The notes below the pieces were generated by a model. That model was not told where the DNA came from and did not search any database. It saw only the letters and a list, made by a program, of their open reading frames with translations. The position numbers and the translations under genes are program-made. Of a stretch of 64,000 nt of DNA, positions 33,629-42,853 are shown piece by piece (position 1 is the first letter of the stretch; the number at the start of each line of letters is the position of its first letter). Source of the stretch: Sedimentitalea xiamensis (lineage in GTDB: Bacteria; Pseudomonadota; Alphaproteobacteria; Rhodobacterales; Rhodobacteraceae); assembly GCF_030164465.1 (NCBI RefSeq), contig NZ_JASNJE010000007.1, positions 1-64,000 of the forward strand. Reading direction: 5' to 3'.

Positions 33629-34267
33629 TCAGACCATGGATTTCAGATGCCCGGTCTTGATCCAGACCCTGGCGCCTTCAGGCCCGGCGCGCCCGCCGAG
33701 AACCGATCCGGGCGGCAACCGCAGCCAGTCCCAGCGCGAAAAGGACTCGGAGGACTCGACGAAGCCGCCCTCGATCACGAAGACCTCGCAACCGCCATCC
33801 GCATCGACCTTTACCGGCGCGTCCGGCGCCCATGTCTCGATCCGCACATCTTCGGTGCCATCCCGGAACAGGGGCACGACCGGTTCGGTCCGCGTCTGAG
33901 CATTCACATGGACCTGCCTGCGGTCGTCCGGATCGAACTGGTGCAGTTTCACCAGGATCGTGGCCCCTTCCGCCGCTGCGGGCGTATGGCGCGATGTCGG
34001 AGGATTGCGCACATAGCTGCCGACCGGGAAATCGCCGCTTTCATCCTGAAACACCCCGTCCAGCACCAGGTATTCCTCGCCACCGCCATGCGTATGCGCG
34101 GCAAAGGCGCTACCAGGCGCGAACCGCACGATGGTCGTCGCACGCGCCACCTCGTCTCCGATCCGGTCCAGCATCTTGCGTTCCACCCCGGCGGCCGGCG
34201 ACGCGACCCAATCGGTGTCGTTGAAATGCACTGCAACGCGCCGGCTGAAATCCGCGTTCAATTTCAT
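33629..34267 (-). CDS. ChrR-like cupin-domain protein
   Basis: 212 residues with two cupin-like repeats. The first metal-type motif is AAHTHGGGEEYLVLDG with GSYVRNPPTSRHTP behind it, similar to the ChrR cupin that senses singlet oxygen or binds zinc. The N-terminal zinc-binding anti-sigma region of ChrR is absent, so it is more likely an enzyme or storage cupin than an anti-sigma factor. AGGAGG directly precedes the ATG at 34267. It diverges from the 3-hydroxyanthranilate dioxygenase gene across 265 bases. Confidence 0.8.
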   Translation of the reverse strand: MKLNADFSRRVAVHFNDTDWVASPAAGVERKMLDRIGDEVARATTIVRFAPGSAFAAHTHGGGEEYLVLDGVFQDESGDFPVGSYVRNPPTSRHTPAAAEGATILVKLHQFDPDDRRQVHVNAQTRTEPVVPLFRDGTEDVRIETWAPDAPVKVDADGGCEVFVIEGGFVESSESFSRWDWLRLPPGSVLGGRAGPEGARVWIKTGHLKSMV

Positions 34268-34462
34268 AGCTCGCCTCCTTTGCCATGCACGCGATTGCGC
34301 GCGCCCAGCATGACGGTTTCCGCGGATTCTGGAACGGGCTTCACGAACTTGTGGCCCGAAGGCGCGATTTCCGTTTCCCCGGAACACCGGCAAGCGCCCG
34401 ATTGACGCCGGCTGCGGTGATGGCAACCGGACTGGCTATCCAAAAAAATAATACCGGATTTC

Positions 34463-34479
34463 GGACAAACTCCTTGTCC
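34463..34479. promoter_or_regulatory. Inverted repeat in the cupin/3-HAO divergent region
   Basis: GGACAA, a five-base spacer and TTGTCC form a perfect six-base inverted repeat 54 bases before the dioxygenase start. An A-rich stretch (34441-34451) precedes it. It is a candidate operator for the LysR encoded at 37955, but no family box is recognised. Confidence 0.3.
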
Positions 34480-34532
34480 TGAACCGGCGCTTGGCCCGAC
34501 GCTTCGCATCACACACCAGGGGAGAAGACCAC

Positions 34533-39777: not shown

Positions 39778-39788
39778 CAGGATACCCC

Positions 39789-41903
39789 GTGCCAGCCAGA
39801 CGCAAATTCATCGGACAAGCGGTGCCAGGCCAGGAAGGCGACAGCCTTCCGCGCGGGGCGGGCCTGTTCGCTGGCGATGTCGCGCTGGACATGCCGCTGA
39901 TACTGCATTTTCTGCGCAGTCCGATGGCGCAGGAAGGGATCGAAATCGGCGGCGTGGCCGAGGCTGCCCAGATGCCGGGCGTCCATGCGGTGCATCTGGG
40001 CACCGATGTGAAGACTCTCGGGAATTTGTCTGTCAATCCGGTTCTGCCCCTGGCCCACGTGCCGGATTTTCCCATCCTGGCGACGGATCGTGTCGCGGCG
40101 GTCGGGCAGCCGATTGCCGCGATCCTCGCCGACACGGTGGAACAGGCCGCCGATGCAGCCGAACGGATCGAGGTCGATTTCACCGGACCACGGCGGATTG
40201 ACGAACAGACGGTGGCCCGGCAACACTGGACCACCGCCGGAGCGGACGCCGCTTTTGGCAAGGCCGTGCATGTGGTTCGCGCGCGCGTCGCCCATCCGGT
40301 GCTGGCCCCGTCCCCGATGGAGCCGCGCACCATCGCCGTGCGCTACCACCCCGACACCGGCTCCGTCACGGTCTGGCATTCGACGCAGACACCGCACCGC
40401 AGCAAATCCGCCCTGGCGCAGATACTCGGAATCGATCCCGAAAGACTGCGCGTCATAGCGCCGGATGTCGGAGGCGCGTTCGGCATGAAGGGATCCGTCT
40501 ATCCCGAAGAGATCCTGGCCGTCTGGGCCGCCCTTCACCATCGCCGCGACGTGCGTTGGGTCGCCACCCGGTCCGAAGAGTTCCTGTCCGCCACTCACGG
40601 CCGGGGACTGACCAGCACCGGCGAGCTGGCCATCGACGCGGAGGGACGGTTCCTCGCCCTGCGCGCCGCCATCGAGGCCCCGCTGGGCCATTGGGTGCCC
40701 AACAGCGGGTTGATCCCGGCCTGGAACGCGGCGCGGGTGCTGCCCTGTGGCTATGATATCGCAGAGATCGACGTGACCACGTTGGCGCGGATCACGCCGC
40801 ATCCGCCGCGCGGCATCTATCGCGGGGCCGGACGGCCCGAGGCCAATGCCCTGATGGAGCGGCTGGTGGACGAAGCGGCGTGGCTTACGGGACTCGATCC
40901 CGTCGATCTGCGCCGCAGGAACCTGCTCGCGCCGGACCGGTTCCCGCATGACACGGCGACGGGCAACAGGCTCGACAGCGGCGGTTACGCGGCGGTTCTG
41001 GATGCGCTCGCGGAAAAGGGCGGATATGCCGCCGCGCTGGCCGCGCGCGATGTGGCACGGTCCAGGGGCGATCTGTCCGGTGTCGGCGTCGCCTTTTATG
41101 TCGAACCTTCGGGTGAAGGCTGGGAAAGCGCGCGGGTGACACTGCACGCGGACAGGGCAGAGATCGCCAGCGGGTCCAGCGCGCAGGGCCAGTGGCGCAA
41201 GACCGCCTTCGCCCAGATCGCGGCCCAGGCGCTCGATCTGCCGATCTCGGCGGTGACGGTGCGCTATGGCGACACGGAGACCTGTCCGGCGGGCATCGGG
41301 GCCCTGGCGAGCCGCAGTACGCCCATCGGCGGCAGCGCGGTCCTGGTCGCCTGCCGCGAGGCGATGCACCGCAGGGATTCGGGAGAGGCGCTGCCGATCA
41401 CCGTCGAAACCCGCTATGAAAACGATGGCCAGGCCTGGGGATATGGCGCCTATCTCGTTTGTCTGACAATCGATCGCGATACCGGTCACGTCAAACTGGA
41501 GCGCATCACCTGTGTGGACGACACCGGAACGGTCGTGAACCCGGAACTCGTTCGGGGACAGATTCTCGGCGGCATCGCGCAGGGATTGGGCGAAGCCTTG
41601 ATGGAAGACCTGCGTTTCGACGAGGACTTCCAACTGCTCACCGGGTCCTTCATGGACTACGCCATGCCGCGCGCCACGGATATTCCCCCGATCGCCATCC
41701 ACAGCCTTCGGACGGAGTCGCCGATGAACCCGCTCGGGGCCAAGGGCGTCGGCGAAGCCGGCACCATCGGCGCGCCCGCCGCCATTCTCAACGCGGCGCT
41801 GGATGCGCTGGCGCCGCTGGGCGTGACCGATTTGACCATGCCGCTGACGCCCTGCAAGGTCTGGCAGGCGATGCAAGATGCTTCAACGGGATCAGGAACA
41901 TGA
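39789..41903 (+). CDS. CoxL-like molybdenum hydroxylase large subunit (orphan)
   Basis: 704 residues, about 80-100 shorter than typical CoxL or XdhB chains. The molybdopterin signatures are present: VGGAFG (227-232), the loop IYRGAGRPE (343-351) that resembles the form II CoxL motif AYRGAGR, and GVGEAGT near the end with the putative catalytic Glu656. It should hydroxylate an aldehyde or an N-heterocycle. The [2Fe-2S] and FAD partner subunits that normally accompany it are not in the window. The GTG start at 39789 follows a GACAGG. Its stop overlaps the aldolase gene (ATGA). Confidence 0.85.
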   Translation: MPARRKFIGQAVPGQEGDSLPRGAGLFAGDVALDMPLILHFLRSPMAQEGIEIGGVAEAAQMPGVHAVHLGTDVKTLGNLSVNPVLPLAHVPDFPILATDRVAAVGQPIAAILADTVEQAADAAERIEVDFTGPRRIDEQTVARQHWTTAGADAAFGKAVHVVRARVAHPVLAPSPMEPRTIAVRYHPDTGSVTVWHSTQTPHRSKSALAQILGIDPERLRVIAPDVGGAFGMKGSVYPEEILAVWAALHHRRDVRWVATRSEEFLSATHGRGLTSTGELAIDAEGRFLALRAAIEAPLGHWVPNSGLIPAWNAARVLPCGYDIAEIDVTTLARITPHPPRGIYRGAGRPEANALMERLVDEAAWLTGLDPVDLRRRNLLAPDRFPHDTATGNRLDSGGYAAVLDALAEKGGYAAALAARDVARSRGDLSGVGVAFYVEPSGEGWESARVTLHADRAEIASGSSAQGQWRKTAFAQIAAQALDLPISAVTVRYGDTETCPAGIGALASRSTPIGGSAVLVACREAMHRRDSGEALPITVETRYENDGQAWGYGAYLVCLTIDRDTGHVKLERITCVDDTGTVVNPELVRGQILGGIAQGLGEALMEDLRFDEDFQLLTGSFMDYAMPRATDIPPIAIHSLRTESPMNPLGAKGVGEAGTIGAPAAILNAALDALAPLGVTDLTMPLTPCKVWQAMQDASTGSGT

Positions 41904-42853
41904 ACTACAGCCGACTCGACGCCAAGGATCATGCCCGCGACCACATGCGCGGAATCTGGGCCGCCGCGCTCAACCCGTTCCGCCCGGACTTCACGCTGGA
42001 CGAAGACGGCCTGCGCGCCAACATCCGCCACTGGATCGACGATCTGGACATCCAGGGGCTGTTCATCGCCGGCAAGCAGGGCGAGTTCTTTTCAATGTCG
42101 GTCCCTGAACGCAAACGCAATTTCGAGATCGCGGTCGACGAATGCGCCGGCAGGGCGGGCACGATCATGTCCTGTTCGGATCAGAATTTCGACACGGTCA
42201 TCGAGCTTGCGAAACATGCTCAGGCCTGCGGCGCCGACTACATCGTCGTTCATGCGCCGATGCTGCATTTCGTGACCGATCCCGACGACACGGTTTACAA
42301 CTACTACAAGACCATCTGCGAACAGGTCGATATCGGCATCGCCATGTGGAGCCATCCGGACAGCGGATACCTGATGTCGCCCGAGTTGTGCGCCCGCGTG
42401 GCGGAACTGCCCAACATCGTGGCGATCAAGTATTCCGTCCCGCGCGAGATGTATGTGCGGCTGACCCGCCTCGTCGGCGACAAGATCCATGTCTCCACGG
42501 CGTCCGAGGCCGAATGGCTCGACAACATCATCGAACTGGACTGGAAGCTCTACCTCTGCTCTTCGCCCCCCTACCAGATCCAGAGCAAGGTGGACCAGAG
42601 GATGAACGACTACACGCGACTGGCGTTGGACGGTAAATTCGACGAGGCGCGCGCGGTGTCGCAAAGCCTGCAACCCGTGCGCGACGCATTCGGGGCGTCC
42701 CGACCCGGCGGCAAACCGCAGGCGCACGGCAAATACTGGCAGGAACTTCTGGGTCAGGTGGGCGGACCGGTGCGTCCGCCCCTGCTGCAATTGACCGATG
42801 CGGAAAAGGCCACGATCCGACAGGCTTTCGAAACCTGCGGACTGCGGGTCTGA
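41900..42853 (+). CDS. Dihydrodipicolinate synthase / N-acetylneuraminate lyase family protein
   Basis: 317 residues, a (beta/alpha)8 aldolase or hydratase. The carboxylate-binding GKQGE (58-62) takes the place of the usual GTTGE. The Schiff-base lysine is Lys177 in VAIKYSV. The tyrosine that acts as general base in dihydrodipicolinate synthase (PYY motif) is not at its usual place: the segment reads HAPMLHF (118-124). Lysine biosynthesis is therefore unlikely. A hydratase-aldolase for an aromatic or keto-acid intermediate fits the context. The start overlaps the molybdenum hydroxylase stop. Confidence 0.87.
   Translation: MNYSRLDAKDHARDHMRGIWAAALNPFRPDFTLDEDGLRANIRHWIDDLDIQGLFIAGKQGEFFSMSVPERKRNFEIAVDECAGRAGTIMSCSDQNFDTVIELAKHAQACGADYIVVHAPMLHFVTDPDDTVYNYYKTICEQVDIGIAMWSHPDSGYLMSPELCARVAELPNIVAIKYSVPREMYVRLTRLVGDKIHVSTASEAEWLDNIIELDWKLYLCSSPPYQIQSKVDQRMNDYTRLALDGKFDEARAVSQSLQPVRDAFGASRPGGKPQAHGKYWQELLGQVGGPVRPPLLQLTDAEKATIRQAFETCGLRV

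Follow-up and report, generated by a model that had tools for sequence, protein, structure and literature searches.

A dense group of genes around a 3-hydroxyanthranilate 3,4-dioxygenase (HAO) was identified in the first 64,000 nucleotides of contig NZ_JASNJE010000007.1 of Sedimentitalea xiamensis (this whole stretch is hereafter the window). It is highly probable that these genes constitute a real catabolic module, and its substrate is very probably 3-hydroxyanthranilate (3-HAA) itself. In the reading that we favour, which we hold to be evenly balanced between right and wrong, the aldehyde of the ring-opened product, 2-amino-3-carboxymuconate 6-semialdehyde (ACMS), would be oxidised. The product would then be cut in a retro-aldol reaction by a DapA-like protein, and an L-aspartate dehydrogenase (AspDH) would complete the conversion to aspartate and malonate semialdehyde. 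We rate the module as a variant of the known 3-HAA pathway with a new enzyme subfamily.

HAO and the DapA-like protein are grouped far beyond chance. In a sample of 295 genomes of the family (matches at E up to 1e-10 for HAO, 1e-60 for the DapA-like protein and 1e-15 for AspDH), 35 encode both, one encodes HAO only, none the DapA-like protein only and 259 neither (Fisher p about 1e-44, with the reservation that related genomes are not independent samples). The sole HAO-only genome (G128) has an HAO relative of 30% identity with an internal stop. The link is not only positional, because the two genes lie on separate contigs in five of the 35 genomes and about 12 kb apart in one. AspDH was found in 66 family genomes, namely all 35 with HAO and the DapA-like protein versus 31 of the remaining 260. 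The original prediction of a catabolic unit around HAO is thereby strengthened. It had named genes not conserved together as grounds for refutation, and these 35 of 295 genomes are the opposite outcome.

The phylum tells the same story. Among 398 genomes any HAO match occurs in 45, a strong one (E up to 1e-39) in 26 and a DapA-like gene in 10, all ten of which are among the 26. In a named collection, the best 80 of 529 DapA loci contain HAO (53), AspDH (55), LysR (49), CoxL (42), aldehyde dehydrogenase (ALDH; 33) and DctP (31) in the same stretch. The 27 without a nearby HAO come from 26 genomes, of which 24 have HAO elsewhere. These three sets (family, phylum, named) share some members, and their counts are not additive.

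The module is partly plasmid-borne and ranges from Roseobacters to gammaproteobacterial metagenome-assembled genomes (MAGs). Plasmid copies were seen in Phaeobacter inhibens M647 (L217/L218), in P. gallaeciensis DSM 26640 (pGal_C110, L219) and in Agrobacterium pusense (pR76, L216), and one module-bearing plasmid is typed as conjugative. The Phaeobacter plasmids have the order KynU-HAO-SSADH-DctPQM-AspDH-DapA, where SSADH is an ALDH of the succinate-semialdehyde dehydrogenase type, with an added tripartite tricarboxylate transporter. The Agrobacterium plasmid has DapA-HAO-ABC transporter-AspDH-SSADH. Four loci of Binatia and Deltaproteobacteria MAGs (L107, L111, L127, L133) have the DapA-like gene with no other module gene in the stretch; HAO is encoded elsewhere in these genomes.

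The window genes were annotated by Pfam and NCBIfam profile matches to the predicted proteins, and all are intact open frames:

33629-34267, minus strand: ChrR-like cupin (PF12973, 129 bits), adjacent to the module
34533-35075, plus strand: 3-hydroxyanthranilate 3,4-dioxygenase, HAO (NF009763, 279.4 bits, cut-off 220; TIGR03037, 273 bits, over cut-off)
35124-36104, plus strand: substrate-binding protein DctP of a tripartite ATP-independent periplasmic (TRAP) transporter (PF03480, 181 bits)
36169-36702, plus strand: TRAP small permease DctQ (PF04290, 73 bits)
36699-37958, plus strand: TRAP large permease DctM (PF06808, 347 bits)
37955-38899, minus strand: LysR regulator, PcaQ-like (PF00126, PF03466; TIGR02424 PcaQ, 211 bits, under the cut-off of 303.8)
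38896-39690, minus strand: L-aspartate dehydrogenase, AspDH (NF009828, 328.7 bits, cut-off 177)
39789-41903, plus strand: short stand-alone CoxL-type molybdenum protein (PF02738, PF20256, PF01315)
41900-42853, plus strand: DapA-like protein of a distinct class I aldolase subfamily (GKQGE, W150, K177)

All of the genes named by the original prediction are thus present. The tight packing that it described is also seen in the window sequence, where DctQ and DctM, AspDH and LysR, and CoxL and DapA overlap at ATGA, and where the convergent stops of DctM and LysR overlap.

By score the window HAO is a true 3-hydroxyanthranilate dioxygenase, since it passes the curated equivalog cut-off. It is a cupin with C-terminal rubredoxin-like cysteine pairs and matches the solved enzyme 1yfu at E 6e-77 with a profile of 12 sequences. 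R46, H50, E56, H94, R98 and E109, which we take to be the iron and substrate residues, are invariant in 12 sequences. The window AspDH may be called an L-aspartate dehydrogenase by score and alignment. It aligns over residues 4-262 with the solved L-AspDH 2dc1 (E 4e-34), including N-x-H-E-I and PKN-x-NVAA, and it passes the NF009828 cut-off while falling under those of several other AspDH models.

Judged by its sequence, the DapA-like protein belongs to the superfamily of dihydrodipicolinate synthase (DHDPS) and N-acetylneuraminate lyase (NAL) by fold, lies outside the known subfamilies and is a subfamily of its own. The (beta/alpha)8 fold is clear and the Schiff-base lysine is present. K177 is invariant in 32 sequences and aligns with the lysine of NahE, KdgD, NAL, YagE and DapA. 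W150, also invariant in the 32, stands where the superfamily has its conserved catalytic Tyr; this Trp and the GKQGE motif set the protein apart from NAL, DHDPS, KdgD and YagE. Identity is 22-26% to these four and 20% to NahE. In profile comparison NAL scored 88, KdgD 63, YagE 62, DapA 48 and NahE 21.7 bits. The best NCBIfam match is KdgD at 88 bits, far from its cut-off of 374. Sixty plasmid rows drawn evenly from 882 include none between 34% and 66% identity.

A parallel proposed for the mode of action is the naphthalene upper pathway, NahC-NahE-NahF. NahE, the trans-o-hydroxybenzylidenepyruvate hydratase-aldolase, uses the lysine of the DapA superfamily for hydration and retro-aldol cleavage of an alpha,beta-unsaturated substrate. 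Both systems share the logic of ring cleavage, a DapA-superfamily protein with the aligned lysine, and an ALDH. On plasmid NAH7 the gene presumed to encode the hydratase-aldolase is clustered with a ring-cleavage dioxygenase and an ALDH. However, the ring is different, the window protein has Trp where NahE has Tyr, and at 20% identity and 22 bits close kinship was not found.

The place of the molybdenum protein is indicated by what replaces it. Within 8 kb of DapA, counting CoxL at 40% identity or more and SSADH-like ALDH at 55% or more, the 35 family loci comprise 17 with CoxL, 16 with ALDH, none with both and two with neither. One of the latter two is a 4.9-kb contig, and the genome of the other (G075) has an ALDH beside HAO (L044). 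The best 80 of the 529 DapA loci comprise 42 with CoxL, 29 with ALDH, none with both and nine with neither. A quick tree built from 112 DapA rows shows seven changes of state, at least four of them forced by well-supported branches. In L034, L035 and L066 the ALDH occupies the very slot that CoxL holds in L033, L064, L065 and L067. The simplest reading is that CoxL and the SSADH-like ALDH most likely oxidise the same aldehyde, because CoxL alternates with one ALDH type and the two never occur together near DapA under these limits. The stand-alone short CoxL is therefore a probable aldehyde oxidase replacing the ALDH of other clusters.

The window CoxL shares the molybdenum cofactor (Moco) motifs and the catalytic Glu of KGVGE with xanthine-oxidase family large subunits (CoxL type II). 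In 60 relatives, window included, GG-x-FG-x-K occurs in 60, RG-x-GRPE in 58, SRST in 51 and KG-x-GE in 55, that is, in 51 to 60 of 60. It differs from type II in that it stands alone and is shortened between two conserved motifs, with 50-52 residues in 49 of the 60 and 74-97 in nine. No [2Fe-2S] subunit of a CoxLMS complex was found beside it; no separate search was made for the FAD subunit.

Two ALDHs from DapA loci scored 455 and 411 bits with SSADH versus 286 and 274 bits with 2-hydroxymuconic semialdehyde dehydrogenase. The preference is reversed in the one ALDH scanned from an HAO locus with RidA (L195; 567 bits for the 2-hydroxymuconic type versus 378 for SSADH), and the ALDH substrate therefore probably differs between DapA and RidA loci. 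An aminomuconate or 2-hydroxymuconate semialdehyde dehydrogenase was not identified: the window cluster has CoxL, and the ALDHs of the two relatives are SSADH-like.

In the known pathway ACMS is handled by ACMS decarboxylase (ACMSD), 2-aminomuconate 6-semialdehyde dehydrogenase (AMSDH) and 2-aminomuconate deaminase. The DapA-AspDH-ALDH/CoxL set takes the place of ACMSD-RidA-AMSDH, because ACMSD and RidA are absent from all 119 DapA loci (window included; the sets overlap), whereas one or both occur in nine of 16 HAO loci from DapA-free genomes. These 16 are all of the phylum-sample genomes with strong HAO and no DapA, read at the HAO locus. Seven have ACMSD (Amidohydro_2) and eight RidA; five have only KynU and kynurenine 3-monooxygenase (KMO), and two none of these. 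Neither ACMSD nor RidA has a match in the window, as the original prediction had said of aminomuconate genes; beyond the window this genome was not screened for them. The two kinds of cluster have in common that HAO opens 3-HAA to ACMS, that an ALDH is in the set and that kynureninase and KMO often accompany it. In contrast, the DapA loci have the DapA-like aldolase and AspDH, with an ALDH of another type or the molybdenum protein. An ascomycete cluster of the ACMSD type is described in PMC7842363. A further example is the Pseudomonas 2-nitrobenzoate pathway (Muraki 2003, cited in PMC4250580).

That 3-HAA is the substrate is very probable from its suppliers in relatives, since tryptophan 2,3-dioxygenase (TDO), KMO and kynureninase, or kynureninase by itself, cluster with the module there and HAO scores as a true 3-HAA dioxygenase. 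Twelve MAG DapA loci, titled Woeseiaceae, Gammaproteobacteria, Chromatiales or Proteobacteria, contain both KMO and kynureninase, with HAO in 11, ALDH in 11, AspDH in 10, TDO in nine and NadA in four. The MAG kynureninase scored 436 bits with TIGR01814 (cut-off 246). The TDO, at 383 bits with TIGR03036, is just under the cut-off of 391. KMO was named by sequence, with NCBIfam giving only related flavin hydroxylases under cut-off. Kynureninase lies between HAO and DapA in genome G213, near both in G075, and in the plasmid-borne modules of Phaeobacter inhibens M647 and P. gallaeciensis DSM 26640. Of the 35 family genomes, 31 encode TDO and 33 a kynureninase over cut-off. TDO, KMO, kynureninase and NadA have no match in the window. 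The earlier statement that kynurenine genes are absent thus holds for the window and fails beyond it: the genome encodes TDO and kynureninase at other sites, and some relatives have TDO, KMO and kynureninase within the cluster.

The 35 family HAO loci, window included, have TRAP genes in 21, a branched-chain-type ABC transporter in nine and neither in five. DctPQM is the probable importer of the substrate, as the original prediction of a TRAP system for an amino-aromatic acid had it. An alpha/beta hydrolase was seen beside ABC-transporter variants (L039, L204, L216 and others). The L039 copy has an HGGYW motif, which we take to be that of kynurenine formamidases; hydrolases of this type match NCBIfam esterase/lipase models only, under cut-off.

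In the proposed pathway DctPQM would import 3-HAA or a close precursor and HAO would open the ring to ACMS. Chemically, ACMS is an oxaloacetate enamine bearing -CH=CH-CHO. CoxL, or the SSADH-like ALDH in other genomes, would oxidise the aldehyde before cyclisation, and the oxidised compound should be unable to close to quinolinate. Its 2-imino-3-ene tautomer repeats the alpha,beta-unsaturated arrangement found in the NahE substrate. K177 of the DapA-like protein would form a Schiff base with C2, water would be added at C4 and a retro-aldol cut between C3 and C4 would give oxaloacetate or iminosuccinate and malonate semialdehyde. AspDH, the enzyme for exactly this product, would reduce the four-carbon fragment, nitrogen included, to L-aspartate, and malonate semialdehyde would go on to acetyl-CoA. 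The atoms balance (3-HAA + O2 + 2 H2O = L-Asp + malonate semialdehyde), and the sum is redox-neutral with an NAD-linked ALDH. The earlier idea that the aldolase and the dehydrogenase act on the ring-opened product is retained here. In Maritalea porphyrae (L130) ALDH, LysR, AspDH and DapA are followed directly downstream by a CoA-acylating (methyl)malonate-semialdehyde dehydrogenase (679 bits, cut-off 448.5), a single case that fits the malonate semialdehyde product.

Several observations weigh against this reading. The catalytic Tyr of the superfamily is replaced by Trp in the DapA-like protein. The profile is nearer to NAL, KdgD and YagE than to the hydratase-aldolase NahE, and KdgD decarboxylates. 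The alternation is not perfect at lower identity: L061/L082 and L087 have a weaker ALDH (about 40%) close to CoxL, and in L121 the ALDH has a 29% CoxL close by. A CoxS-type [2Fe-2S] subunit was present in the fetched stretch of three of 62 CoxL-type loci and absent near CoxL in the other 59, the window cluster included; the nine CoxS-type genes of the window's genome adjoin other CoxL genes. In eight of the 35 family genomes the best AspDH is separated from DapA by contig and has an identity of only 42-47%. No HAO at all was found in two of the 26 genomes whose DapA lacks a nearby HAO. One MAG (G702) has its sole HAO beside RidA with DapA elsewhere, another (G688) carries an ACMSD-RidA-HAO locus plus a separate DapA contig, and a third genome (G684) has an HAO locus with a distant (24%) ACMSD relative. 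The (methyl)malonate-semialdehyde dehydrogenase is a neighbour in the Maritalea locus only, and no HAO match was found in that genome. Finally, a KMO search run without a positive control gave no match in any of the 35 family genomes, so an external supply of 3-HAA may be needed. These bacteria probably consume 3-HAA or 3-hydroxykynurenine that other organisms release. As regards the Tyr site, KdaD is said in PMC13398020 to have Glu there.

Retro-aldol cleavage and decarboxylation cannot be separated by sequence alone, which is the main reason why the favoured reading receives no more than an even chance. If the DapA-like protein instead removed the C3 carboxylate of ACMS, as an unrelated replacement of ACMSD, then ALDH or CoxL would give 2-aminomuconate and the AspDH homologue would lead towards 2-oxoadipate or 2-aminoadipate. 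The known HAO, ACMSD, AMSDH and reductase route includes a reductase step, and one gene would be available for each step. KdgD, of the same superfamily, is the best NCBIfam match and is described as dehydrating and decarboxylating in PMC13398020. However, the scanned ALDHs are SSADH-like rather than of the 2-hydroxymuconic type, AspDH is over the aspartate dehydrogenase cut-off and aligns with a solved AspDH, and loss of the amine would be anticipated from a Schiff base at C2. We consider this unlikely. Less likely again is the same module in another order, in which DapA would cleave ACMS directly to iminosuccinate or oxaloacetate and malondialdehyde, with ALDH or CoxL oxidising the C3 dialdehyde later. 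The gene set would be identical, an SSADH-like ALDH would suit a small semialdehyde, and the NAH7 hydratase-aldolase gene is likewise clustered with a ring-cleavage dioxygenase and an ALDH. Malondialdehyde, however, is reactive. In addition, early oxidation would be favoured by the spontaneous cyclisation of ACMS, which PMC10143591 reports.

A role in NAD supply, with HAO providing quinolinate and AspDH acting as NadX to feed NadA, is improbable. In its favour, NadA is directly upstream of AspDH-HAO in three MAG loci (L119, L140, L143). None of 42 genomes (the window's genome, 34 relatives and seven further MAGs) has a NadB that passes the curated cut-off (452.75 bits), and three come close at 432-451 bits. 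Yet the constant DapA, the ALDH/CoxL alternation and the importer would be left unexplained. The five of 16 phylum HAO loci without DapA that have only KynU and KMO are what a NAD role might look like. As an observation in its own right, the NadA position connects the module with NAD synthesis or with iminosuccinate, and the 42 genomes without NadB by cut-off may make NAD via AspDH, salvage or HAO. Most improbable of all is the original prediction that the molybdenum enzyme hydroxylates an imported N-heteroaromatic compound or anthranilate before HAO opens the ring. The CoxL family does include ring hydroxylases, and quinoline 2-oxidoreductase is among the PDB matches. However, CoxL is replaced by an SSADH-like ALDH in relatives, a sign that it oxidises an aldehyde once the ring is open, and kynureninase and KMO of some relatives already supply 3-HAA. 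With these genes in the relatives' clusters, 3-HAA itself is a better reading of the substrate than picolinate or nicotinate.

A search of open-licence PMC papers found no description of the HAO/DapA/AspDH/CoxL-ALDH gene set. In a review (PMC10143591) and a fungal paper (PMC7842363) two fates of ACMS are given, decarboxylation by ACMSD and cyclisation to quinolinate. We tentatively propose, at slightly under an even chance, a third enzymatic fate. A new class I aldolase subfamily would cut the ring-opened compound after its oxidation, so that aspartate receives the nitrogen plus four of the 3-HAA carbons and malonate semialdehyde another three. For one step of this route a stand-alone, shortened molybdenum protein would have been exchanged repeatedly with an ALDH. 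ACMS is a branch point of the kynurenine pathway, and a third fate, if true, would bring a further enzyme class into tryptophan catabolism. It would also assign a role to the genes annotated as "dihydrodipicolinate synthase family protein" that adjoin "aspartate dehydrogenase", and would provide a case of a molybdenum protein substituting for an aldehyde dehydrogenase. The gene set on pGal_C110 of Phaeobacter gallaeciensis DSM 26640 makes the proposal directly testable.

The borders of the module were also considered. The original prediction had counted the ChrR-like cupin as a member. HAO, DctPQM, LysR, AspDH, CoxL and DapA are kept; the cupin is probably a companion of the neighbouring pyrimidine genes PreA and PreT, because PreA, PreT and ChrR are grouped with no adjoining HAO in four relatives' loci (L106, L117, L120, L123). 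Positions 26023-33486, beside the module, contain a hydantoinase-like Amidohydro_1 protein, an M20 peptidase-family protein and PreT/PreA, and are likely a reductive pyrimidine pathway. The beta-alanine branch of that pathway likewise ends in malonate semialdehyde. Farther away, at 12317-17106, a molybdopterin oxidoreductase with an Fe4S4 domain and a cytochrome b561-type protein are probably a formate dehydrogenase. Three frames downstream of the module, 43003-44013 (336 aa), 44081-44695 (204 aa) and 47083-49482 (799 aa), have no Pfam match at 1e-5, and the frame at 43003-44013 holds the same slot in several relatives.

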